In this document: positions 14,634 to 64,000 of the stretch, piece by piece | Numbering within the stretch: the stretch's first letter is position 1 | Layout: every line of letters starts with the position of its first letter | Origin: an uncultured Bacteroidales bacterium | GTDB lineage: Bacteria > Bacteroidota > Bacteroidia > Bacteroidales > Paludibacteraceae | Assembly: GCA_903901975.1 (NCBI GenBank) | Contig: CAIUTB010000146.1 | Span: forward strand, 1 to 64,000 | Length of the DNA: 64,000 bases | Reading direction: 5' to 3' | Translations under genes and position numbers: made by a program | The notes under the pieces: generated by a model | Seen by the model: the letters and a program-made list of their open reading frames with translations, nothing else | Databases searched by the model: none | What the model was told of the DNA's origin: nothing

Positions 14634-15334
14634 AGTACAGCTCCTCTTAAAAACAAACCAAAGGTATTTACACGCATATTAAGCAGTCCGGCCTGCATAT
14701 ATCCTAAATCACTATAAAACAATAATTTATCATTAAGTTTATAGCTGAATTTTGCTTGTAGCAATGGGTTAGTTTCCTGCTCTATTATGTAGCGGTCGAA
14801 GTTTGTGACACAAGCTTCAAAATCCCATTTTTTGCCTAGTGATTGGTAATAACTGAGACGATACATAAGGTTGAAAGGTTCCCAAATGGAAGTTGCCACA
14901 GAATCAGCAAAATTATATTTCTGTCTGGCGGAATTTGTAAAATAATAAATCCGTGAATTGATACCCAATTGATACCCCCAATGTTTTGTGCGGAATTTTG
15001 CCAATAAACCGAAATCTGATTCCCTCAAATCTGCTGAAAATGGCTTCCATAAATAAAGTGCAGCTATATTGACCGGCAAGTTTAGAATTTTGAACTCGTT
15101 TGCAGCTTGTATTGAATAGGCCGAAAACACTGATGTATTCGCATTCGAAAAATTCAATAATCCGCCTGTTGAAACAGAAAAACTCCCAAACAGAGCGGAA
15201 ATCTGAGTCGAGAAATTCCCAAACAGTCCTGCAGAAACATTCGTGCTGCCGGTTTCGAGGTAGGTATCAACAGAAACCTGCGAATAAACTAGATTATGCC
15301 AACAAATGAAAAACAATAAAATACTGTATTTCAT
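14618..15334 (-). CDS. Secreted conserved hypothetical protein
   Basis: Signal peptide MKYSILLFFICWHNLVYSQ; start chosen at 15334 inside the ORF-track frame; 16 nt overlap with the downstream metallophosphoesterase gene. Confidence 0.6.
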   Translation of the reverse strand: MKYSILLFFICWHNLVYSQVSVDTYLETGSTNVSAGLFGNFSTQISALFGSFSVSTGGLLNFSNANTSVFSAYSIQAANEFKILNLPVNIAALYLWKPFSADLRESDFGLLAKFRTKHWGYQLGINSRIYYFTNSARQKYNFADSVATSIWEPFNLMYRLSYYQSLGKKWDFEACVTNFDRYIIEQETNPLLQAKFSYKLNDKLLFYSDLGYMQAGLLNMRVNTFGLFLRGAVLWKIN

Positions 15335-15374
15335 TAATTTAATTGAATTATTTTTGCTTTTTTGCATACATTGT

Positions 15375-16580
15375 TCAAATTTTATCCGACATATCAATGC
15401 TTACTGGAATTTCTTTTAATTCACGCATTAATATCAGTTTTAGAGCTAATTTTGAAGGGGTTTCAAAAATCTTTCTAATTTCATTTATTGACATAGATAT
15501 TGCTCGCTCTCCATTAATCTCGAGTATTTTATCTCCGGGAAAAACTCCCGCTAATGCTGCCGGAGAACCTGCCCAAACAGTCAACACTTCTGTTATTGGT
15601 AAAAAAAGGGTCAACTGTACAATTTCTATTCCAGCGATATTGTACGAATACCTTCTTTTGAAATTCTCGTTGGGTTTAAAATAAAGTTTTTTTTGATTGT
15701 AATCAAAAATCAGGTTAAACCGACTCAGCAACTGACTTCCAATCGTCCCATCCCGTTTCGAATTGTTTATTATCTGCGAAATTGAAGCAGAATCAGGAAA
15801 AGAAACAATCGGATTTTTCAAACTAAAATCACCTATTCTTATTTCAGGAATACGTCCGTATTTTCCGCTAATTATACCATTCAATCCTTCTCCAATCGTT
15901 CCGTAAATCCACTTCGAAGGTAGATGAACCGATTCGGATGTCATTGTTTGAAACCAGGCATTTAGTTCAGCACCTGTATCAATAAGCATTTTTACTTTTT
16001 GACGGCTGCTGTCAGTATTTAAAACAGCAAATTCTACAAAAAGTTTTTGTGCCTCAATGCTGATTGGTAATACCCCATAGCCTTTAGGAGGATCAAAAGG
16101 AGTGGGTTGATAAAAGCGGACCCGCCTGGCAGAATAATCAATTTCGACCGTATAATCCTGAAAAAAATCAGCTCCGATAAGCCCGTTTATCTTCGTTCCG
16201 GAATGTTTCGATAAATTGAAAACATTCTCCTGAAGCACATAAACGGTTTTATAATTCATCTTTAACCTGCCTATTTTCAATGTATTATAGTTGCTTATGT
16301 AGGCATCCAGATGGTTTCCGCCACCAAGTCCCATTAAATCTTTTACGTCCGAATAATTGAGGGTAATGCGGTCGCCTGCTTGCAATTCGGTGATAATTGT
16401 ATTTCTGACACCGGAATCCAGAATAAGATTAAGTGGAGATGAATCGTTTATTCGAAGAGTGATAACTACATAACTCCCGACCAATTCAAATGGAATGGAT
16501 TCGATCCGTTTAGGCTTGATGATGCCAAAAGCATCATAGCAAAACAAAAATGTTAAACAGAAAAGAACAACTCTTTTCAT
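15375..16580 (-). CDS. Retropepsin-like aspartyl protease with C-terminal PDZ domain
   Basis: Two aspartyl motifs (LILDSGVRNTIIT, MLIDTGAELNAW) and PDZ-like VWAGSPAALAGVFPGDKILEINGE. Confidence 0.85.
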   Translation of the reverse strand: MKRVVLFCLTFLFCYDAFGIIKPKRIESIPFELVGSYVVITLRINDSSPLNLILDSGVRNTIITELQAGDRITLNYSDVKDLMGLGGGNHLDAYISNYNTLKIGRLKMNYKTVYVLQENVFNLSKHSGTKINGLIGADFFQDYTVEIDYSARRVRFYQPTPFDPPKGYGVLPISIEAQKLFVEFAVLNTDSSRQKVKMLIDTGAELNAWFQTMTSESVHLPSKWIYGTIGEGLNGIISGKYGRIPEIRIGDFSLKNPIVSFPDSASISQIINNSKRDGTIGSQLLSRFNLIFDYNQKKLYFKPNENFKRRYSYNIAGIEIVQLTLFLPITEVLTVWAGSPAALAGVFPGDKILEINGERAISMSINEIRKIFETPSKLALKLILMRELKEIPVSIDMSDKI

Positions 16581-45358: not shown

Positions 45359-45943
45359 ATGGATAAAGTTAGTTATGCGTTGGGTTTAAGTTTGGGAAAT
45401 AACCTGTTAAGCAGTGGAGTTACAGCATTAAATTATGCTAAGTTTGCAAAAGGAATTCAGGATGTGATGGAACAAAAAGCTCCTGAAATAAGTTATGAGG
45501 ATGCTCAAACTGTAATCAACGATTTTTTTCAGGAATTGCAATCCAAAGTAGGTGAAATAGCCCTGAGTCATGGAAAAGCTTTTTTAGCCGAAAATGCCAA
45601 ACGCTCTGAAGTGCTTACACTTGCAAGTGGTTTACAATACGAAGTAATTACCGAAGGAGCAGGGGTAAAACCAAAAGCTTCGGACTCAGTAAAAGTACAT
45701 TATCACGGTTCGTTACTCGACGGAACGGTATTCGACAGTTCAGTCAGTCGCGGTGAGCCTGCCACATTTGGTGTAACTCAGGTTATCAGTGGTTGGGTTG
45801 AAGCTTTGCAATTGATGCCGGTAGGTTCGAAATGGAGATTATTTATTCCTTCCGAACTGGCTTATGGTGCTCAGGGTGCTGGTCAGTCTATCGTACCACA
45901 TTCGACTTTGATATTTGAAGTAGAATTATTGGAGATCGTTTAG
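45359..45943 (+). CDS. FKBP-type peptidyl-prolyl isomerase
   Basis: VKVHYHGSLLDGTVFDSSVSRGEPATFGVTQVISGWVEALQLMPVGSKWRLFIPSELAYG. Confidence 0.95.
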   Translation: MDKVSYALGLSLGNNLLSSGVTALNYAKFAKGIQDVMEQKAPEISYEDAQTVINDFFQELQSKVGEIALSHGKAFLAENAKRSEVLTLASGLQYEVITEGAGVKPKASDSVKVHYHGSLLDGTVFDSSVSRGEPATFGVTQVISGWVEALQLMPVGSKWRLFIPSELAYGAQGAGQSIVPHSTLIFEVELLEIV

Positions 45944-46013
45944 TTTATAATAAACGGTAAGCAGTAATCGGTAAACAGTAAGTAAAAATTTAAAAAATCA
46001 ATTATACAAAACA

Positions 46014-46826
46014 ATGAAAAAGACAATTTTAATTCTTGCAGCTGTGGGCATGGTGTTTGCTTCGGCTGATGCACAGTTATTTAAAGCTAAAGCAAAAAAA
46101 GCAGATGTTGTAATAGCACCTGTAAAAGTGTTTAACAATGATGTTGATTCTATGAGTTATGCTTTGGGGATTAATGTTGGAACAGATTTTGCCAAAAATC
46201 TGAAAGGCATTCCCGGTGGAAAATCAACGATAGATCTGATCATTAAAGGTTTTACTACTGCAATGAAAGGCGATTCAGCTTTAATGAAACCAGAAGTAGC
46301 AACTGAAATCTTTAAAAACTACATTTCTAAAGCTCAGGCTAAAGATGTAGAACTGAAAAAGGGAGCAGGCGAAAAATTCTTAGCTGAAAACAAAACAAAA
46401 GCGGGTGTAACTACTACAGCAAGCGGATTGCAATATCAGGTTCTGGTGCCTAAAGATGGTCCTAAACCAGCAGCAACTGATACAGTAAAAGTACATTATA
46501 CCGGAACTTTGCTTGATGGCACAAAATTTGATAGCTCTGTTGATCGTGGCGAGCCGGTTTCATTCCCATTAAATCAGGTAATAAAAGGCTGGACTGAAGG
46601 CGTTCAATTGATGTCAGTTGGTTCTAAGTATAAATTCTTTATTCCTTACGACTTGGGTTATGGTACACAAGCACCTCAGGGTAGTCCGATTCCGGCTTAT
46701 GCAACCCTTATTTTCGAAGTTGAATTATTGGATATCAAACCACTAAAACAAATTACTCCAAAAGTTGAAGTGAAAGAAGTAGTCCAACCGAAAGCAAAAA
46801 AAGGCTCTAAAAAATCAAAGAAATAA
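46014..46826 (+). CDS. FKBP-type peptidyl-prolyl isomerase, secreted
   Basis: Signal peptide; VKVHYTGTLLDGTKFDSSVDRGEPVSFPLNQVIKGWTEGVQLM; Lys-rich C-terminus. Confidence 0.94.
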   Translation: MKKTILILAAVGMVFASADAQLFKAKAKKADVVIAPVKVFNNDVDSMSYALGINVGTDFAKNLKGIPGGKSTIDLIIKGFTTAMKGDSALMKPEVATEIFKNYISKAQAKDVELKKGAGEKFLAENKTKAGVTTTASGLQYQVLVPKDGPKPAATDTVKVHYTGTLLDGTKFDSSVDRGEPVSFPLNQVIKGWTEGVQLMSVGSKYKFFIPYDLGYGTQAPQGSPIPAYATLIFEVELLDIKPLKQITPKVEVKEVVQPKAKKGSKKSKK

Positions 46827-46870
46827 TTTCATTACAAGAAAAAAATAGAAATTTATAAATTGAAAATCAA

Positions 46871-47395
46871 ATGAAAAAACAAAGTATTTTCTCGTTGGTA
46901 GCATTGGTTGCCATTTTTATGCTTGCCTCGTGCAACAAATACGAAGCAAAAACAGCTACTCTGAAAACTCAGAATGACAGTTTGAACTACACACTTGGTT
47001 TAGCCAATGGTGATGGTATCAAAAACTATTACATGAAAACCGATTCGTCAAGCAAACCAATCATCGCCCTAATGAAAGCGTTGGATAAAGCTTACTCAAC
47101 CGGAGCCAACAAAGGTGAAATGTACAAATTGGGTCTTGAAATCGGAAACTCATTGAAACAACAAAAAGCCAAAGGCTTAATGGGTGACTCAACCCTTAAA
47201 TTCAATGAAAAATTGGTAAAACAAGGATTGGTAAACGCATTGAATGGTTATGACAAAGGAATGACAGCAAAACAGGCTCAGGAATTTATTCAGAAAACCA
47301 TGATGAAAATTCAACAACAAAAAATGCCAATGCCTCAACAACAAGATCCGGCTCAATCTTCAGCTCCACAACAAGCACCACAACCAGTTAGATAA
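46871..47395 (+). CDS. Lipoprotein with FKBP-type N-terminal domain but no catalytic domain
   Basis: FMLASCNK lipobox; DSLNYTLGLANGDGIKNYYMK homologous to the N-terminus of the next gene; ends in a Gln/Pro-rich tail. Confidence 0.85.
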   Translation: MKKQSIFSLVALVAIFMLASCNKYEAKTATLKTQNDSLNYTLGLANGDGIKNYYMKTDSSSKPIIALMKALDKAYSTGANKGEMYKLGLEIGNSLKQQKAKGLMGDSTLKFNEKLVKQGLVNALNGYDKGMTAKQAQEFIQKTMMKIQQQKMPMPQQQDPAQSSAPQQAPQPVR

Positions 47396-47425
47396 TAGTT
47401 CAACTAATTTATAATAAACAGAAAA

Positions 47426-48358
47426 ATGAAAAAACTTAATATAATTATGGCGGTGGTTTTGGTAGCCGCAGTAGCGTTTACTTCGTGCAACAGCAACAAG
47501 ACAAGTTTGCCTACATTGAAAACTCAGCTTGATAGCTTGAACTATGCTTTTGGTCTTGCTAACGGCGACGGTGTGAAAAACTATTACATCAAAGGTGATT
47601 CTGCTCAAAAAGCAATTAAATCACTTATGGAAGGTGTAAACGAAGGAATGAAAGGTAAAGTTGAAAAAGAAAACACTGAACTGACTGACCTTGGAACTAA
47701 AATTGGAACTGCTTTAAAAGAACAAAAGAAAACCGGTTTAATGGGTGATTCTTCATTGAAAGTAGATATCAAACTGATTAAACAAGGATTGGTAAACGGT
47801 TTGAGAGGCTCTAAAGTACTGATGGATGCTAAAACGGCTCAGGAATATCTTCAAAAAACCATGAGCGGTTTACAGGCTAAAAAAATGGAGAAATTGTATG
47901 GTCCAAACAAAACAGCCGGTATAAAATTCTTAGAAGAAAATGCTAAAAAACCGGGTATTGTAACTACTCCAAGTGGTCTTCAATACGAAGTGGTTAAAAA
48001 AGGAAACGGTGCACTCCCAACCGATAACGATAAAGTAAAAGTAAACTACAAAGGAACATTGATTGATGGTACTGAGTTTGATAGCAACACCGGTAAAGAC
48101 CCAATCGTATTCCAGGCTAATCAGGTAATTAAAGGTTGGACAGAAGCGTTAAAACTAATGCCTGTAGGTTCAAAATACAAATTATATATTCCTCAGGAAT
48201 TGGCTTATGCCTCAGCCGATCGTGGTAAAATCAAACCTTTCTCGGCATTGATTTTCGAAGTGGAATTGATTTCAATTGAAAAACAAGCTGCACAACAACA
48301 GTTGACTCCAGAGCAAATGCAACAGGTTCAACAACAAATGCAACAACAGAGACGATAG
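47426..48358 (+). CDS. FKBP-type peptidyl-prolyl isomerase, lipoprotein
   Basis: VAFTSCNS lipobox; VKVNYKGTLIDGTEFDSNTGKDPIVFQANQVIKGWTEALKLM; Gln-rich C-terminus. Confidence 0.94.
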   Translation: MKKLNIIMAVVLVAAVAFTSCNSNKTSLPTLKTQLDSLNYAFGLANGDGVKNYYIKGDSAQKAIKSLMEGVNEGMKGKVEKENTELTDLGTKIGTALKEQKKTGLMGDSSLKVDIKLIKQGLVNGLRGSKVLMDAKTAQEYLQKTMSGLQAKKMEKLYGPNKTAGIKFLEENAKKPGIVTTPSGLQYEVVKKGNGALPTDNDKVKVNYKGTLIDGTEFDSNTGKDPIVFQANQVIKGWTEALKLMPVGSKYKLYIPQELAYASADRGKIKPFSALIFEVELISIEKQAAQQQLTPEQMQQVQQQMQQQRR

Positions 48359-54964: not shown

Positions 54965-56536
54965 TTATTTGGAAATGAACCCTTTGTATAGTTTTTCCAT
55001 TTGTATAATTTTTTGTTTAATAAGTTGTGACCGAACCGGAGTATATCCAAGAATTAAGCCCTGAGTAGGATTCTCAGTAACAAAACACTTGCTATAAGGA
55101 TGAGCTATGATATTATTTTTTGCAAAATGATCGACAAGTTCTTTGTCTTTTATTCCTACATTGAGTTTTGCTAAAACATGAAGACTCCTAATATCGCTTT
55201 TTTCAAGTAAAACAGCATCTCCAAAACTATTTTCAAAGGTTTCACAAAACAGTTTTTTACGTTCCTCTGCTATTTCAATAACGTTCTTAACGTGGTTATA
55301 TAAATAATTTCGCTCAATAAACTGGCTCAAAACTACCTGAATGGAAGAAGGAACAAAGCGATGTGAATGTTTGAGTAATGCTTCCACAGAATCGAGCAAA
55401 TAAAAAGGAACAACCATATAACCTACCCGAATGGAAGGATGTAACAGCCGATTAAATGTGCCAAAAAAAGCGACTCTTTGCTGCGTGTCCAAACTAAATA
55501 AGGAGGGTATAAAATCTTTGTAATTATTTACTTCGTGTTCATAATCATTCTCAATAATAATAGTATTGTGCTCGTTGGCCCATTTAAGGAGTTCCAGCCT
55601 TCTATTTAGCGTCATTCTCACTCCGGTAGGATAATGACAGGAGGGAACTGTATGAATCAGTTTGGATTGGATATGACCGGGTTGAGTCAATTCACTCACT
55701 TTTAACCCATCCTCATCTATTGATACTGTTTGAATATTGGATTGTAATCCTTTGAAAATTGAAATAACATTGGGAAAAGTTGGATTTTCCATGGTCATAC
55801 AATCACCCGGATTTAGTAGTACGTTTCCTATGATGTAAAGCGATTGCAAAGAGCCGGAAACAATGATGATCTGACGAGGGTCGCATTTAATATTGCGACT
55901 AAAATTCAAATAATTGGCCAGCGATTTTTTTAATTGGTCGGTGCCGGATGATGCGGAATACGACAGACCTGATGATTTGATATTTCTCCAGTAAAGATTA
56001 CTGAGATTTTTCCATTGATTAACCGGAAAAATATCAAGGGGCGGCAAGCCCGGACGAAATGCTATATCCGTGTCGTCGGTACTATTTATTAAAGTTATGT
56101 TTTTCTGAAATGATTTACCCGTCTCAGATAAATCAGGATACCCAAACTGACTGAAATTATGGCTTTTGGGTGGTGAAATTTCCAGAACAACTCCTTTTAC
56201 TTTATGCCCTGAACCAGTAGTTGATTCGATAAAGTTTTCATACAGGAGCAATTCGTATGTTTTAATAATTGTGCTTCGTGAAACTTTTAATTTTGCAGCA
56301 AGTTGACGGGTAGAAGGTAAAATACTGCCTTCGGGAATATCATTATTCAAAATTGCTTCTTTTATGAGTCCGTGAATACGTTGATAAAGCCCTATTTTAT
56401 AGCCTTTTGAGACTTTTCTCAAATTCATTTCATTATATGCATTGGAAATTCTGGTCAATATATCTTCCATATTGGTATGTATAAATAAATATAATTGGTA
56501 TGGCAAAGATAATAATAAATCGGGTTTCTTTGCCAT
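54965..56536 (-). CDS. MocR-type regulator (GntR wHTH plus PLP aminotransferase-like domain)
   Basis: PEGSILPSTRQLAAKLKVSRSTIIKTYELL wHTH; IIENDYEHEVNNY...FGTFNRLLHPSIRVGYM aminotransferase fold. A later ATG (MEDILTRISNAY) is an alternative start. Confidence 0.88.
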   Translation of the reverse strand: MAKKPDLLLSLPYQLYLFIHTNMEDILTRISNAYNEMNLRKVSKGYKIGLYQRIHGLIKEAILNNDIPEGSILPSTRQLAAKLKVSRSTIIKTYELLLYENFIESTTGSGHKVKGVVLEISPPKSHNFSQFGYPDLSETGKSFQKNITLINSTDDTDIAFRPGLPPLDIFPVNQWKNLSNLYWRNIKSSGLSYSASSGTDQLKKSLANYLNFSRNIKCDPRQIIIVSGSLQSLYIIGNVLLNPGDCMTMENPTFPNVISIFKGLQSNIQTVSIDEDGLKVSELTQPGHIQSKLIHTVPSCHYPTGVRMTLNRRLELLKWANEHNTIIIENDYEHEVNNYKDFIPSLFSLDTQQRVAFFGTFNRLLHPSIRVGYMVVPFYLLDSVEALLKHSHRFVPSSIQVVLSQFIERNYLYNHVKNVIEIAEERKKLFCETFENSFGDAVLLEKSDIRSLHVLAKLNVGIKDKELVDHFAKNNIIAHPYSKCFVTENPTQGLILGYTPVRSQLIKQKIIQMEKLYKGFISK

Positions 56537-56646: not shown

Positions 56647-58011
56647 ATGGAAGTAATCGGAACTATCATTAGTTTGATATTCATTGTTATAGTAGCATTT
56701 TTGCTCTATAAAAAATACAATGCTCAAGCTGTATTGCTTTTTAGTGGATTAGTCATGATGGCTTTTGCATTGATTATGGGCTTTAAGTTGCCGGGATTGA
56801 AAGACCCAACTAACCTTAAGTTTTTTGATCTTTTCGAACTGATTAAAGAATCATTGAGTTCGAAGGGAGCTGATGTCGGACTTATGATTATGACTATTGG
56901 CGGTTACGTAGCTTATATGAAAAAAATCGGAGCAAGCGATACACTCGTTTATCTTGCGATGAAACCACTCTCTATTTTCAAAAAAACACCTTATCTGGCG
57001 GCATCATTAGTTATTCCAATCGGACAACTTTTATTTATTACCACACCTTCTGCTGCAGGATTGGGACTGCTATTAGTTGCTTCAATTTTTCCTGTATTAG
57101 TAAGTCTGGGCGTTAGTAAAACGTCGGCTGTTTCGGTAATTGTTGCCTGTACAGTATTTGATATGGGACCGGCGTCGGCAAATACAGCATTGGCTTCCAA
57201 ATTAATCAGCAAATCAAATGTTCAGTATTTTATTGAAAATCAATTGCCACTGGCAATTCCCTTGACCATTTTAATGGCCGTTGTATATTTCTTTGTCAAC
57301 CGCTATTACGATAAGAAGGAAAATCACGTGGCTGAAGTTGTTGATACTGCCAGTCTGAAAACGAAAGCTCCTTTAATTTATAGTTTACTTCCGATACTTC
57401 CATTGATATTGTTGATTACCTTCTCTAAGTTCTTCACTATCTTTCATCCGGCAATCAATTTAGACACTACAACCGCCATGATTTTATCATTGTTTGTGGC
57501 TTTGATATTTGAAATGATTCACAAAAAAAACGTGAGCGAAGTTTTCAGTTCACTGAAAACATTCTGGGAAGCAATGGGGAAAGTATTTGCAACCGTTATC
57601 AGCCTTATTATTACAGCAGAAATATTTTCATACGGACTTATCAGCCTGGGCTTTATCAATAGTCTGGTGGGTATTTCGCAGGATTTCGGACTTGGTGCTG
57701 TTGGAATTGGCATAGTTATGACCGTAATGATTTTCGGAGCATCCATGTTAATGGGCAGCGGAAATGCTTCATTCTTTTCCTTTGGTCCTTTGGTCCCCGG
57801 AATTGCCTTGAAAATGGGCGTGGATGGTGCCGGAATTATACTTCCTATGCAATTGGCTTCAAGTCTCGGTAGAGCTACTTCACCCATTGCCGGAGTTGTT
57901 ATTGCCACGGCTGAAATTGCCGGAGTTACACCCTATCAGGTGGCCAAACGAAACCTGATTCCGTTAACAACAGTTTTGGTTGGAATGCTTATTTATCACT
58001 TTATTTTTTAA
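56647..58011 (+). CDS. C4-dicarboxylate transporter, DcuC-like
   Basis: Hydrophobic, >=10 predicted TM segments; LGRATSPIAGVVIATAEIAGVTPYQVAKRN. Confidence 0.82.
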   Translation: MEVIGTIISLIFIVIVAFLLYKKYNAQAVLLFSGLVMMAFALIMGFKLPGLKDPTNLKFFDLFELIKESLSSKGADVGLMIMTIGGYVAYMKKIGASDTLVYLAMKPLSIFKKTPYLAASLVIPIGQLLFITTPSAAGLGLLLVASIFPVLVSLGVSKTSAVSVIVACTVFDMGPASANTALASKLISKSNVQYFIENQLPLAIPLTILMAVVYFFVNRYYDKKENHVAEVVDTASLKTKAPLIYSLLPILPLILLITFSKFFTIFHPAINLDTTTAMILSLFVALIFEMIHKKNVSEVFSSLKTFWEAMGKVFATVISLIITAEIFSYGLISLGFINSLVGISQDFGLGAVGIGIVMTVMIFGASMLMGSGNASFFSFGPLVPGIALKMGVDGAGIILPMQLASSLGRATSPIAGVVIATAEIAGVTPYQVAKRNLIPLTTVLVGMLIYHFIF

Positions 58012-58022
58012 TTACAGGTACT

Positions 58023-59180
58023 ATGATGAAAATTATCAAAAACGCTGAAGTCTATTCACCGGAATATCTTGGAAGAAAAGATATTCTTATTGGTGGGGAG
58101 AAAATTCTTGCTATCGGGGAAAATATTGAAACCAGCAATATAGCTGTTGAAGTGATTGATGCAAAAGGGAAAATCGTTACTCCGGGATTTATCGATCAGC
58201 ATATTCACTTAACAGGTGCCGGTGGGAAACAGGCTTTTTCGTCCATGACACCCGAAATAAGTATCTCAGAATTGATTCAATGCGGAACAACCACTGTTAT
58301 GGGAATGCTCGGAACTGATGGTATTACCCGTTCTCTTCAGGGTTTGTATGCCAAGGTAAAAGGACTGGAACAGGAAGGAATCAGTGCTTATATGCTTACC
58401 AGCTTTTTTGGTTATCCAACCAAAACGATGCTGGGCAGTGTACTGGAAGATATGGTTTTTATTGATAAAGTGATTGGCTGTAAAATAGCTATCAGCGATG
58501 AACGTGCATCATTCCCCACTGAAAACGAACTCCTTAAACTGTTACGTGAAGTGCATGTAGGCGGGTTAACTTCAGGAAAAGGTGGCATATTGCATATTCA
58601 TTTAGGAGCACTTGAAAGCAAAATGGATATTTTACTCGATTTGGTAAAGAAATATCATTTCCCAATCCGCCACATATCCCCAACCCATGTTGGACGAACA
58701 AAAGAACTATTCGATCAGGCAATAGAATTTGCTAAACTGGGTGGAATGATTGATATATCGACCGGTGGAACAAAATTTGATTTGCCCTACAAACAGGTAT
58801 TGTATGCATTAGAGAAGGGTGCTTCGATTGATAATATGACTTTTAGTAGTGATGGAAATGCCGGTATGGCCAAGAAAGATGAAAATGGTAAAATTGTAAA
58901 ACTATATAAAGCCCCGGTTGACTTGAATCTCAAGCAAGTCATTATTTTAATTCAGGAAGCCGGAATGTCAATTAGCGATGCGTTCAAATTAATAACCACT
59001 AATCCGGCCAGAAACCTATCATTATTCCACAAAGGAAAAATAGCATTAGGGTGTGATGCGGATTTATGCTTTTTCGATTCGGACTTTAATTTGACTGATG
59101 TGATTTCAAGAGGACATAAAATGATGAAAGACAAAGAAATAGTAAAATGTAATTGTTACGAAAACTGCAGCAACAAATGA
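58023..59180 (+). CDS. iadA: Isoaspartyl (beta-aspartyl) dipeptidase
   Basis: GFIDQHIHLTGAGGKQAFSSMTPEI; LHIHLGALESKMDIL; HISPTHVGRTKELF; FSSDGNAG. Confidence 0.88.
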   Translation: MMKIIKNAEVYSPEYLGRKDILIGGEKILAIGENIETSNIAVEVIDAKGKIVTPGFIDQHIHLTGAGGKQAFSSMTPEISISELIQCGTTTVMGMLGTDGITRSLQGLYAKVKGLEQEGISAYMLTSFFGYPTKTMLGSVLEDMVFIDKVIGCKIAISDERASFPTENELLKLLREVHVGGLTSGKGGILHIHLGALESKMDILLDLVKKYHFPIRHISPTHVGRTKELFDQAIEFAKLGGMIDISTGGTKFDLPYKQVLYALEKGASIDNMTFSSDGNAGMAKKDENGKIVKLYKAPVDLNLKQVIILIQEAGMSISDAFKLITTNPARNLSLFHKGKIALGCDADLCFFDSDFNLTDVISRGHKMMKDKEIVKCNCYENCSNK

Positions 59181-59977
59181 AAATTAAAAGTTACATAGTA
59201 TCTTTCTTTCTTTTACTTGCTAATGTTTTGACTTTTAGTCAGACAACATTATTGACTGAAGATTTTAATTATTCGGCCGGTGATTTACTTACAAATCATG
59301 GTTGGAATGAAACTCCTGCTGTTAGTGTTGAATCAAAAGTCCTTTTTGTGGGGAATAGCTTTACATTCTATAATGATGGTGTAGATATTCATTTGCAAAA
59401 ATTGATTCAATACGATACCTCGTTCGAAGGAGTTAGTTTCGATATTCAGAAAATTGCTGTGAGTTCATATACTTTGGAGGGACATTATAACGATCCGTTG
59501 ACAATGGCAAAAATCAGAAGCAATAACTGGAACATAGTCGTTTTACAGGAACAGAGTACCAGACCGATAAACAGCCCTGATTTATTTTTACAATATGCCA
59601 CCTTGCTCGATACTGAAATAAAAAAAATGAATGCCCGAACAGTTTTATACATGACCTGGGCACCAAAAGCAACACTAACTGACATAGATCAACTGGCAGC
59701 ATCCTATATTTCTGTTGGCAAACAACTTAATGTGCCGGTGGTTCCGGTAGGGAAAGTATGGGATTCTTTTGTAAGCAAATATCCGAGCATTAATATCTAT
59801 TATACTGACAATAAACATCCTTCGCTTGCCGGAACATATTTGATAGCATGTACTTTCTATTATTCATTATATGGACGAAATCCGGTTTTGAATACTTATG
59901 TTCCTGTTGGACTAAGTTCGGCAAATGCCGTTACTATCCGGAAGGCAGTATATGATTATATGCAATTAAATAAATAA
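59177..59977 (+). CDS. Secreted SGNH-hydrolase-like protein with N-terminal fragment of the LL-EDFNY family
   Basis: MKIKSYIVSFFLLLANVLTFSQ signal; TTLLTEDFNYSAGDLLTNHGWNE; KVLFVGNSFTFYNDG...LQEQSTRP...DNKHPSLAGTYLIA. ATG overlaps iadA stop (ATGA). Confidence 0.8.
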   Translation: MKIKSYIVSFFLLLANVLTFSQTTLLTEDFNYSAGDLLTNHGWNETPAVSVESKVLFVGNSFTFYNDGVDIHLQKLIQYDTSFEGVSFDIQKIAVSSYTLEGHYNDPLTMAKIRSNNWNIVVLQEQSTRPINSPDLFLQYATLLDTEIKKMNARTVLYMTWAPKATLTDIDQLAASYISVGKQLNVPVVPVGKVWDSFVSKYPSINIYYTDNKHPSLAGTYLIACTFYYSLYGRNPVLNTYVPVGLSSANAVTIRKAVYDYMQLNK

Positions 59978-60032: not shown

Positions 60033-61034
60033 ATGAAAAAAATTTACTTATTCGTATTCTTGGGCATTAGCAGTTTAGCTTTTGCAGGTTCTCCTTTATT
60101 GATTGAAGATTTTAATTACACAGCAGGTGACTTAATAACTGCACATGGTTGGAGTAATCATAGCGGTACAACAAGTCCAATTTTAGTTACTTCGCCCGGA
60201 TTGACTTTTACAGGCTATGTAGGTTCAGGAATAGGACTGGCTGCTGGTTTAAACAATACTAGCGAAAAGGATAATAAACAATTTGGAGCTCAAACTTCAG
60301 CATGTATTATTTATGCTTCGTTTTTAGTGAACTGTACAGTTACAGTTGCTGCAGGAGATTGTTTCTTTCATATATGGGATAATACTCTTAATTCACCTAC
60401 CCAATTCAGAGGCAAGGTTTACCTTGGAAACCACGCTACTGCAGGAAAAATGAAAGTTGGCTTAGCATATAGTACAACATCACCAACTTATTCTGCCACC
60501 GAATTCAATTTTGGTGAAACCTATTTGTTTGTATTAAAATATAATATTATTGATGGTGCATTAAACGATCAGGTTAGTTTATATGTGTTTAAAGCCGGAG
60601 ATTCTTTCATAACAGAACCATCAACTACTACTCTTGGTCCATTATCAGATGGAGCTGTAGCTGATTTTGCAAATCCTTCCAGTGTAGCTCTTCGTCAATT
60701 TAATGCAGCTCAACGTATTACAGTTGATGGAATTCGTGTCAGAAAAGAATGGGATATGATAGATGATTCTAATGTTGTTACAGGAATGAGTCCCTTAAAT
60801 GAAAATCAAACCTTGGTTTGTTATCCGAATCCGGTAACCGATGGATTTGTGAATTTGGGCAATATAGCTTCTACAATGAAGGATGTACAGATATTTGATG
60901 TGGTGGGTAAAAAAGTATTAACCCAACAAAGCATTTCAAACAGACTGGATGTATCCGCTTTAAATTCAGGAATTTATGTATTAAAAGTTTCGGCTGATAA
61001 TCATACCAGTTCTTCCAGATTAGTGATTAAATAA
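60033..61034 (+). CDS. Secreted LL-EDFNY family protein with T9SS C-terminal sorting domain
   Basis: Signal peptide; CYPNPVTDGFVNLGN...VQIFDVVGKKVLTQQ...LNSGIYVLKVSADNHTSSSRLVIK. Confidence 0.85.
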   Translation: MKKIYLFVFLGISSLAFAGSPLLIEDFNYTAGDLITAHGWSNHSGTTSPILVTSPGLTFTGYVGSGIGLAAGLNNTSEKDNKQFGAQTSACIIYASFLVNCTVTVAAGDCFFHIWDNTLNSPTQFRGKVYLGNHATAGKMKVGLAYSTTSPTYSATEFNFGETYLFVLKYNIIDGALNDQVSLYVFKAGDSFITEPSTTTLGPLSDGAVADFANPSSVALRQFNAAQRITVDGIRVRKEWDMIDDSNVVTGMSPLNENQTLVCYPNPVTDGFVNLGNIASTMKDVQIFDVVGKKVLTQQSISNRLDVSALNSGIYVLKVSADNHTSSSRLVIK

Positions 61035-61063: not shown

Positions 61064-62065
61064 ATGAAAAAGATATATTTATTCATATTGCTCTGCATGA
61101 GCAGTTTTACTTTTGCAAGTTCTCCATTATTGGTTGAAGATTTTAATTACAAAGCAGGTGATTCGATAACGAATCATGGTTGGAATGGTCACAGTTCAGC
61201 CGGAACAAATCCAATTCTGGTTACTTCGCCCGGATTAACGTTTGCAGGTTATGTAGGTTCAAATGTTGATCCCAGTCTGGCTGCCGGAGTAAACAATACT
61301 GGTGAAAAGGATGATAAATACTTTGGTGAACAAACAGCTGCAGGTCCTATTTATTCCTCGTTTTTAGTAAACGCTACTGCTACATCGACTAGTGCAAACG
61401 GCGATTGCTTCTTTCATATATGGGATCCTACTCAAGGACCAACAGTTATGAGATGCAAGGTTTACATGGCAAACGGTTTGACAGCAGACAAAATGAAACT
61501 TGGTCTATCATATAGTACGACAACTCCAACTTTTTATTCAACTGAATTAAACTTTGGTGAAACCTATTTGTGTGTAATAAAATATATGGTTGTTGATGGA
61601 CTGTTAAACGATCAAACAAGTTTATATGTGTTTAAAACGGGAGATGATTTAAGCACAGAACCACTAACTCCCGCTGTTGGTCCTTTAACCGGGACTGCAG
61701 CTGATATTGTTCCAACCAGCGTTTCACTTCGTCAAGGTAATGCAACTGAACGGATTACGATTGATGGAATCCGGGTTAAAACATTTTGGCAATTAAACAA
61801 AGATGATGCTACAAGTATAAATTCAATAAATGCCAATAATATACTTGAATTTTATCCAAATCCGGTTACTGATGGTTATTTGAATCTTACTAATTCAGGC
61901 AACTCAACTAAATCGGTTGAGATATTTGATGTAGTTGGGAAAAAAGTGCTGAGCCAACTAACACTTTTAAGCAGAGTGGATGTGTCAGCATTAAATGCAG
62001 GAATTTATGTATTAAACGTTACTGCAGATAATCAGACACGATCTTCGAGATTTGTTGTAAAATAA
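61064..62065 (+). CDS. Secreted LL-EDFNY family protein with T9SS C-terminal sorting domain (paralogue, same length)
   Basis: 333 aa as its neighbour; FYPNPVTDGYLNLTN...VEIFDVVGKKVLSQ...LNAGIYVLNVTADNQTRSSRFVVK. Confidence 0.85.
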   Translation: MKKIYLFILLCMSSFTFASSPLLVEDFNYKAGDSITNHGWNGHSSAGTNPILVTSPGLTFAGYVGSNVDPSLAAGVNNTGEKDDKYFGEQTAAGPIYSSFLVNATATSTSANGDCFFHIWDPTQGPTVMRCKVYMANGLTADKMKLGLSYSTTTPTFYSTELNFGETYLCVIKYMVVDGLLNDQTSLYVFKTGDDLSTEPLTPAVGPLTGTAADIVPTSVSLRQGNATERITIDGIRVKTFWQLNKDDATSINSINANNILEFYPNPVTDGYLNLTNSGNSTKSVEIFDVVGKKVLSQLTLLSRVDVSALNAGIYVLNVTADNQTRSSRFVVK

Positions 62066-62201: not shown

Positions 62202-63302
62202 ATGAACAAAAGCAAGTTATTTCTAGGATTATTGTTTATGATGGCAATCATGTTGTCATGTAAAACAGATGATGTAAAGCCTTTCGTTACCCTTTCATCC
62301 AATGTGACCAGCATTTCTGAAAATGACAGCGTAGCAACAATTACTGCATCCATTGTAGTGACGTCGCAGAATGATATAGTTGTAACCCTTGACACTATTG
62401 GCAGTACGGCAAAAGGCGATAGCGTTGATTTTGTTCTCAAACCAAGCATAATTATCATTCCTGCCGGAAGTTTATCGGGAACTGCTAAATTAACTGCCAT
62501 TCCGGATAATTTAAAACAAGGAAATCAGACAGTGCTAATAACTCTAAAATCAATAGTAGGTGGAAGCTCGAACGATAATCAGAAGCTTACTATCACCATC
62601 TTAGATGATGATATCCCGGTAAAAAAGCCACCAATATTAGTTGAAGACTTTGATTACACTGCCGGTGATGCACTTACGCTTCATGGCTGGGTTATTCATA
62701 GTGCTACAACGAATCCTCTTGTGGTTACTTCTCCGGGATTGACATTTGCCGGTTATGTAGGGTCAGGCATAGGCAATGCAGCCGGAGTCAATAATACAGG
62801 CATTGATGAAAATAAACTTTTCGGAGCTCAAACAAAAGATTCCATTTATGCATCATTCATGGTGAATGCCACAGCAACTTCGGCTGCCAGTGATTACTTC
62901 TTCCATATATATGATCCTATACCAACTGGGAGTCTGGCTCATAGAGGAAGAGTTTTCATTATACCAGTATCGGGTGCACCGGGAAAAATGACTATAGGCT
63001 TCTCGTTTGGTATTTCTCCTGCACAAGCAACAATGACAACGCAATTAAATTTTGGTCAAACTTATTTGATGGTTGTTAAGTATACGGTAGTTGATGGTGC
63101 TGCCAATGATAAAGTTAGTTTGTATGTATTTGCAGATGGAGATGATTTTACAAACGAACCTACAACGCCAACTTTAGGCCCATTGACAGGAACACAGGGT
63201 GATATTGTTCCTACCGGTCTAGCGCTTCGTCAGTTTGATGCTGCTCAACGAATCACAGTCGATGGAATCAGGGTGAACACTGAATGGAATTTGAAACCAT
63301 AG
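62202..63302 (+). CDS. Lipoprotein with Calx-beta-like domain and LL-EDFNY family domain
   Basis: MNKSKLFLGLLFMMAIMLSCKTDD lipobox; SENDSVATITASIVVTSQ...LTITILDDD; LVEDFDYTAGDALTLHGWVIHSATTNPLVVTSPGLTFAGYVGSG. Confidence 0.82.
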   Translation: MNKSKLFLGLLFMMAIMLSCKTDDVKPFVTLSSNVTSISENDSVATITASIVVTSQNDIVVTLDTIGSTAKGDSVDFVLKPSIIIIPAGSLSGTAKLTAIPDNLKQGNQTVLITLKSIVGGSSNDNQKLTITILDDDIPVKKPPILVEDFDYTAGDALTLHGWVIHSATTNPLVVTSPGLTFAGYVGSGIGNAAGVNNTGIDENKLFGAQTKDSIYASFMVNATATSAASDYFFHIYDPIPTGSLAHRGRVFIIPVSGAPGKMTIGFSFGISPAQATMTTQLNFGQTYLMVVKYTVVDGAANDKVSLYVFADGDDFTNEPTTPTLGPLTGTQGDIVPTGLALRQFDAAQRITVDGIRVNTEWNLKP

Positions 63303-63349: not shown

Positions 63350-64000
63350 ATGAAAAAAATTCTAATTAAATTACTAATAATAAGTATTTTGGTTCCTGTG
63401 TATGTTAATGCACAGGAGTCAAAATTGCACTCCTATTCTTTTGGCGAAGGATTGACCTTTACCGATGGGAAAGATTATACAATCGACTTAGATGGTTTTG
63501 TTCAACCTTCTTACCAGGGAACACTTTTTTTAGATCCCAATCATAAAGATGTATTTAATCGTTTCCGCTTACGCAGATTAAATATGAAACTTTCGGGTGA
63601 TGTAGATCACAAAAAAATTGAATATGGTCTGCAAATTGATTTAAGCGGTACCTCTGAGACAGGGAATGCATCCAGCAGCATATTGATGGATGCCTGGGTA
63701 GCTTATAATGTAAATAAACAGTTACAAATCACCTTTGGACAGCGAAGTACACCGACTGACAACCGGGAATTAATGATGGCTTCTCAGACTTTACAATTGG
63801 TAGAAAGAAGTAAAGTTACTTCAGCTTTCGCTACGATTCGTGAATTCGGTTTGTTTTTGGATGGTACCTATAAAATTGGAAAAATGTCTTATTTGAAACC
63901 CTATCTGAATGTAACTAATGGTGATGGAATAAATGTATCCTTAAAAGATCACGGTGGATTGAAATTTGGTGGTCGATTGGATTTTCTGCCATTTGGATTA
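63350..64000 (+). CDS. Phosphate-selective porin O/P-like outer membrane protein (truncated by window end)
   Basis: MKKILIKLLIISILVPVYVNAQESKLHSYSFGEGLTFTDGKDYTIDLDGFVQPSYQG...RFRLRRLNMKLSGDV...FGQRSTPTDNRELM; open at 64000. Confidence 0.75.
   Translation, partial: MKKILIKLLIISILVPVYVNAQESKLHSYSFGEGLTFTDGKDYTIDLDGFVQPSYQGTLFLDPNHKDVFNRFRLRRLNMKLSGDVDHKKIEYGLQIDLSGTSETGNASSSILMDAWVAYNVNKQLQITFGQRSTPTDNRELMMASQTLQLVERSKVTSAFATIREFGLFLDGTYKIGKMSYLKPYLNVTNGDGINVSLKDHGGLKFGGRLDFLPFGL

Follow-up and report, generated by a model that had tools for sequence, protein, structure and literature searches.

An SGNH-hydrolase gene behind iadA in an uncultured Bacteroidales bacterium, with a 5' end probably captured from a neighbouring EDFNY-family gene

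The window analysed here, 64,000 nucleotides from the start of contig CAIUTB010000146.1 (C146) of an uncultured Bacteroidales bacterium, contains a gene (59177-59977, + strand, 266 aa) in which the leader of one protein family stands in front of the hydrolase domain of another. How was this chimera formed, and did the new leader change the destination of the enzyme? The product was divided into a predicted Sec signal peptide without a lipobox cysteine (MKIKSYIVSFFLLLANVLTFSQ; residues 1-22, 59177-59242), a borrowed EDFNY segment (TTLLTEDFNYSAGDLLTNHGW; residues 23-43, 59243-59305, dN/dS 0.08), a fast-changing linker of eleven residues (NETPAVSVESK; residues 44-54, 59306-59338) that brackets the fusion point, and an SGNH hydrolase (DUF4886) domain beginning VLFVGNSFTFYNDG (residues 55-266, 59339-59974). 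All four parts lie on the + strand.

The initial annotation had described a signal peptide followed by a segment like that of the next two genes and then by an SGNH domain, and this order was borne out. Behind its signal peptide the chimera carries the EDFNY-family pattern EDFxYxxGDxLTxHGW. Its N-terminal ~60 residues matched the two following genes, j2 (61064-62065, +) with an E-value of 2.6e-9 and j1 (60033-61034, +) with 6.3e-8, as well as a third EDFNY gene at C146:74497 (1.9e-7); with the first 76 residues as the sole query the top match reached 7.9e-11. On account of these values the resemblance of the leader to the EDFNY genes is far above chance. The secreted proteins encoded by j1 and j2 have the style of signal peptide and the first 21 mature residues in common with the chimera, and differ from it in having the remaining beta-rich domain and a T9SS sorting tail. 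Past residue 43 the rest of that domain (VTSPGLTF...YFFH...RITVDGxRV) is absent from the chimera, which is therefore a carrier of the segment and not a member of the EDFNY family; likewise, the T9SS C-terminal sorting domain (PF18962 / TIGR04183) gave clear matches in j1 and j2 and none in the chimera. The EDFNY fold is named only as beta-rich, since its model was poor (pLDDT 55) and a solved relative was found only for the T9SS tail.

The body of the chimera was assigned to Pfam DUF4886 (PF16227) with an E-value of 2.2e-8 and 33.9 bits against a curated cut-off of 26.7. An AlphaFold2 model had a pLDDT of 81.8 overall and mostly above 90 in the SGNH fold, and a fold search with it returned 4i8i (DUF4886, Bacteroides uniformis) as the best PDB match (E 3.5e-11, TM 0.65), together with 4s1p, a putative SGNH hydrolase. 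The chimera shares with this family the fold, the GNS block and the DxxHP block; the other DUF4886 members examined have leaders of their own, none of them with the EDFNY segment, and the chimera differs in both respects. Ser61 (block I) and Asp211 and His214 (block V) were invariant across 14 aligned relatives, and judged from this alignment the serine, aspartate and histidine of the SGNH active site are intact. DUF4886 has no member with known activity (PMC9487903).

An SGNH gene without the segment, which had been proposed as the ancestral form to look for, was found in other genomes and in the same genome, 14.4 kb downstream of the chimera and in the same locus (C146:73606-74346, on the part of the contig that extends beyond the window to 86,753 bases). 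It begins as a lipoprotein (MMRFIKYLYICVLIIGFNAC; ..LIIGFNAC..) and is followed by the third EDFNY gene. It could be aligned to the chimera only from residue 51, where the two are 62% identical; the SGNH domain of the chimera is 62-64% identical to those of the unfused paralogs. Orthologs of this lipoprotein were present in five other genomes, here called G182, G192, G024, G426 and G520, the last with a shorter version of the locus. They share the locus with the chimera, and an SGNH domain at 63% identity, and differ from it in the lipobox cysteine, in the missing EDFNY segment and in their place on the 3' side. A lipobox-like cysteine was seen in all six unfused homologs and in neither of two chimeras, both of which have no cysteine in the first 60 residues. 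The likeness extends to the start codon, which in the two chimera-bearing genomes lies at or near the upstream gene's stop. In the genome of the window each SGNH copy starts on such a stop, that of iadA or that of an SDF-type transporter. For the chimera the initial annotation had read the overlap correctly: its ATG (59177-59179) overlaps the iadA stop TGA (59178-59180), and the same overlap is present in the second chimera species.

This second species is represented by the MAG of uncultured Bacteroidales Umea2_bin-1854 (G182; CAIYTJ010000335.1), in which the orthologous chimera is 77% identical over all 266 residues. Gene order there is DcuC, iadA, chimera, EDFNY, EDFNY, lipoprotein, porin, M14 peptidase, porin, transporter, unfused SGNH, EDFNY. 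The window comes from a draft genome of 170 contigs, and a fusion made by the assembly, or a broken gene, might be suspected. Misassembly is very unlikely, to the point of being negligible, because the fusion and the gene order around it recur in a second species whose genome was assembled independently; the reading frame is also intact, with a dN/dS of 0.12 for the whole gene.

Three relatives have only the unfused SGNH gene at the 3' end. In G024 (another genus, one contig) and G426 (another family) the order is DcuC, iadA, one EDFNY gene, lipoprotein, porin, M14, porin, SGNH lipoprotein; the EDFNY gene directly follows iadA, with no SGNH gene between them. G192, of the same genus as the window, has the 3' part of this order on a short contig and no chimera elsewhere, so that the junction of iadA and EDFNY can be read in two of the three. 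From these orders the ancestral locus had one SGNH lipoprotein near its 3' end, and an EDFNY gene directly after iadA. The chimera occupies the place where that EDFNY gene formerly started. Searches at the level of the genus (48 genomes), the family (300) and the order (about 390), and a wider contig scan, turned up no further chimera. Among roughly 80 SGNH open reading frames in the examined loci (98 by an automated count, in which some frames appear twice and truncated copies are included), the segment is confined to the two orthologous chimeras; it is thus not a widespread part of the SGNH family, as the initial annotation had allowed that it might be. In a tree of the SGNH domains the two chimeras grouped together (support 87/96); four of its five inner branches were open, the tree is too short to date the duplication, and the duplication has no fixed place relative to the other unfused genes. 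The EDFNY gene that follows the unfused SGNH gene in G182 (L061, G182:C335:12000-31000; reverse-strand ORF 14748-15683 in reversed coordinates) has no EDFNY segment (QAGLGPVRINAATNPV in place of QAPLATEDFSYTAGDALTAHGWNAHSGGTTNPV) and a GTG or TTG start, and is possibly decaying.

The most probable explanation, to which we give a probability of about 0.7, is that a lineage-specific duplicate of the SGNH lipoprotein gene captured its 5' end from the EDFNY gene beside iadA, and so gave rise to a soluble exported enzyme. The SGNH (DUF4886) gene near the 3' end of the isoaspartyl-dipeptidase locus would have been duplicated, the copy would have landed between iadA and the EDFNY genes, and it would there have taken the signal peptide and the first 21 mature residues from the EDFNY gene at the landing place. 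Recombination between tandem genes, as proposed at first, would account for the leader, with an EDFNY gene at that place as its likely source; the SGNH body would come instead from a duplicate of the lipoprotein gene 14.4 kb downstream. Scored against both families, the signal peptide of the chimera was weakly nearer to those of the EDFNY genes than to those of the SGNH lipoproteins, and it is not certain that the first ~10 residues derive from an EDFNY gene. Nor could the breakpoint be placed by aligning DNA: synonymous sites are near saturation, and residues 44-54 serve as a bracket only.

The combination had been called new. It is absent from the other SGNH genes examined, as noted above, but it is not recent. 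Between the two species dS was 1.32 for the chimera and 1.25 for iadA (other genes of the locus range from 0.64 to 2.74), and the fusion therefore precedes the split of the two species. The dN/dS values for the parts of the two chimeras were 0.22 (signal peptide), 0.083 (segment), 1.4 (linker) and 0.092 (SGNH part). Nonsynonymous changes separated the segment from the linker (Fisher p = 2.7e-6) and did not separate it from the SGNH part (p = 0.82). All three differences in the 20 segment columns compared were at positions where a set of 20 EDFNY proteins is variable as well (permutation p = 0.03). Judged from one species pair, 21 codons and a near-saturated dS, the borrowed segment is kept as protein, under purifying selection, because its dN/dS is low, it contrasts with the linker and its changes are confined to EDFNY-variable columns.

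It might still be argued that the leader was captured to restore export of the duplicated SGNH gene and that the segment is a passive leftover, tolerated as a spacer. The segment is without the rest of its home domain, residues 20-47 of the chimera model are unstructured (pLDDT below 50, with just two sequences informing that stretch), and the adjoining residues 44-54 drift freely. A tolerated spacer is nevertheless rather unlikely, given that the segment has about 5 nonsynonymous differences in 49 sites while its synonymous sites are near saturation, that it is as slow as the enzyme (48% of the enzyme's 21-codon windows are equally or more conserved), and that all three differences fall at the EDFNY-variable positions. 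Repeated overwriting of the segment by gene conversion from the neighbouring EDFNY genes, which would explain the similarity with no need on the part of the chimera, is less probable again. Three similar copies do lie within 3.5 kb, and the segment DNA of the window's chimera agrees with its own j2 at 50 of 63 positions and with its own j1 at 48, compared with 47 for the chimera of the other species. Against this, dS between the chimeras is 1.40 in the segment, equal to the 1.46 of the SGNH part, with no sign of recent copying; no pair is joined by a long identical tract; and in G182 the chimera is no closer to its neighbours (41 and 46 of 63).

Under the usual rules of envelope targeting, a lipobox cysteine directs a protein to become a lipoprotein, and a cysteine-free signal yields a soluble exported protein. 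Judged from sequence, the unfused parent is most likely a lipoprotein, and the chimera is predicted to be soluble and exported, with the periplasm as its most likely location, because all six unfused homologs have the lipobox-like cysteine and the chimeras have neither a cysteine nor a T9SS domain. Under duplication and 5'-end capture, replacement of the lipobox-type signal by a cysteine-free one would have freed the enzyme from its lipid anchor and made it a soluble exported protein. As it has no T9SS tail, the chimera probably remains periplasmic and is produced in step with IadA, and the anchored paralog would stay in the membrane. The periplasmic enzyme would cleave an ester or acyl group from a substrate of the locus, although the reaction is a guess. 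The segment has probably been retained for docking or stability, as an N-terminal element exposed on the protein, and is probably more than a spacer. A more specific idea, that the orphan segment is a docking strand tethering the soluble hydrolase to the EDFNY-domain proteins encoded beside it (the secreted ones or the lipoprotein chimera), is speculative and improbable; were it true, contacts of the EDFNY domain would now be made between proteins, and a domain fragment would have been turned into an assembly tag.

The event belongs with gene chimeras formed by duplication and 5'-end capture, in which a duplicate is joined to a neighbour's leader and the destination of the protein is changed, as here. 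It is domain and leader shuffling of a known kind, with unusually complete before-and-after evidence; a small literature search found no precedent for such a chimera in this family. The locus amounts to a natural experiment: the parent gene without the fusion, the likely donor family, the fused descendant, retained in two species, and the ancestral gene order can all be compared. It suggests a simple route by which Bacteroidales may release an envelope enzyme from its membrane anchor into a soluble compartment, and raises the question why selection preserves 21 residues of an unrelated domain.

A second chimera was identified in the same locus. The initial annotation had spoken of four N-termini to be aligned; in the fourth of these proteins, the lipoprotein encoded at 62202-63302 (+), the segment, EDFDY, is internal, at about residue 147. 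The EDFNY domain of this lipoprotein is encoded from about 62631 onward and is preceded by a Calx-beta-like N-terminal half. The counterparts in G024 and G426 share the Calx-beta-like half and end in a C-terminal lamin-tail domain (LTD; E 5.8e-16 and 6.7e-17), and LTD-like sequence was read by eye at the same place in G192; the copies in the window and in G182 have the EDFNY domain where G024 and G426 have the LTD. The EDFNY family has therefore expanded within the locus, through duplication and no fewer than two captures, in the lineage to which both chimera-bearing species belong. With two such captures in a single locus, reuse of the domain looks like a local habit.

The locus opens with a DcuC-type C4-dicarboxylate carrier (56647-58011, +), followed by iadA for a beta-aspartyl (isoaspartyl) dipeptidase (58023-59180, +; NCBIfam TIGR01975, 375.9 bits against a cut-off of 331). 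After the second chimera comes a porin of the Porin_O_P family (63350-64000, +), which extends past the window end, and then an M14 peptidase, a porin, a SusC/SusD-like pair, an SDF transporter, the unfused SGNH lipoprotein and the third EDFNY gene. Because its members include the isoaspartyl dipeptidase, the carriers of C4-dicarboxylate and SDF type, the M14 peptidase, the porins and the SusC/SusD-like pair, the locus probably takes up and degrades peptides of the aspartate-rich or isoaspartyl kind, from which the SGNH enzymes would strip an ester or acyl group, as far as gene company can indicate. A cyanophycin utilisation locus was considered because of iadA, and no cyanophycinase (TIGR02069) match was obtained in the window's own genome.

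The SusC/SusD-like pair (L008:4545-9257; C146:67545-72257) is flanked by the second porin and the SDF transporter; it is absent from that place in G182 and G024, and the G520 version of the locus has such a pair. Divergent to the DcuC gene is one for a MocR/GntR-like protein (54965-56536, - strand, recognised by eye), which has the same place in G182, G024 and G426 and is likely to regulate the isoaspartyl-dipeptidase locus. Elsewhere in the window, at 45359-48358, is a run of four genes, three of them like FKBP-type peptidyl-prolyl isomerases with differing leaders; the gene at 46871-47395 in this run has no C-terminal FKBP half, and the run is another tandem family with leader differences.
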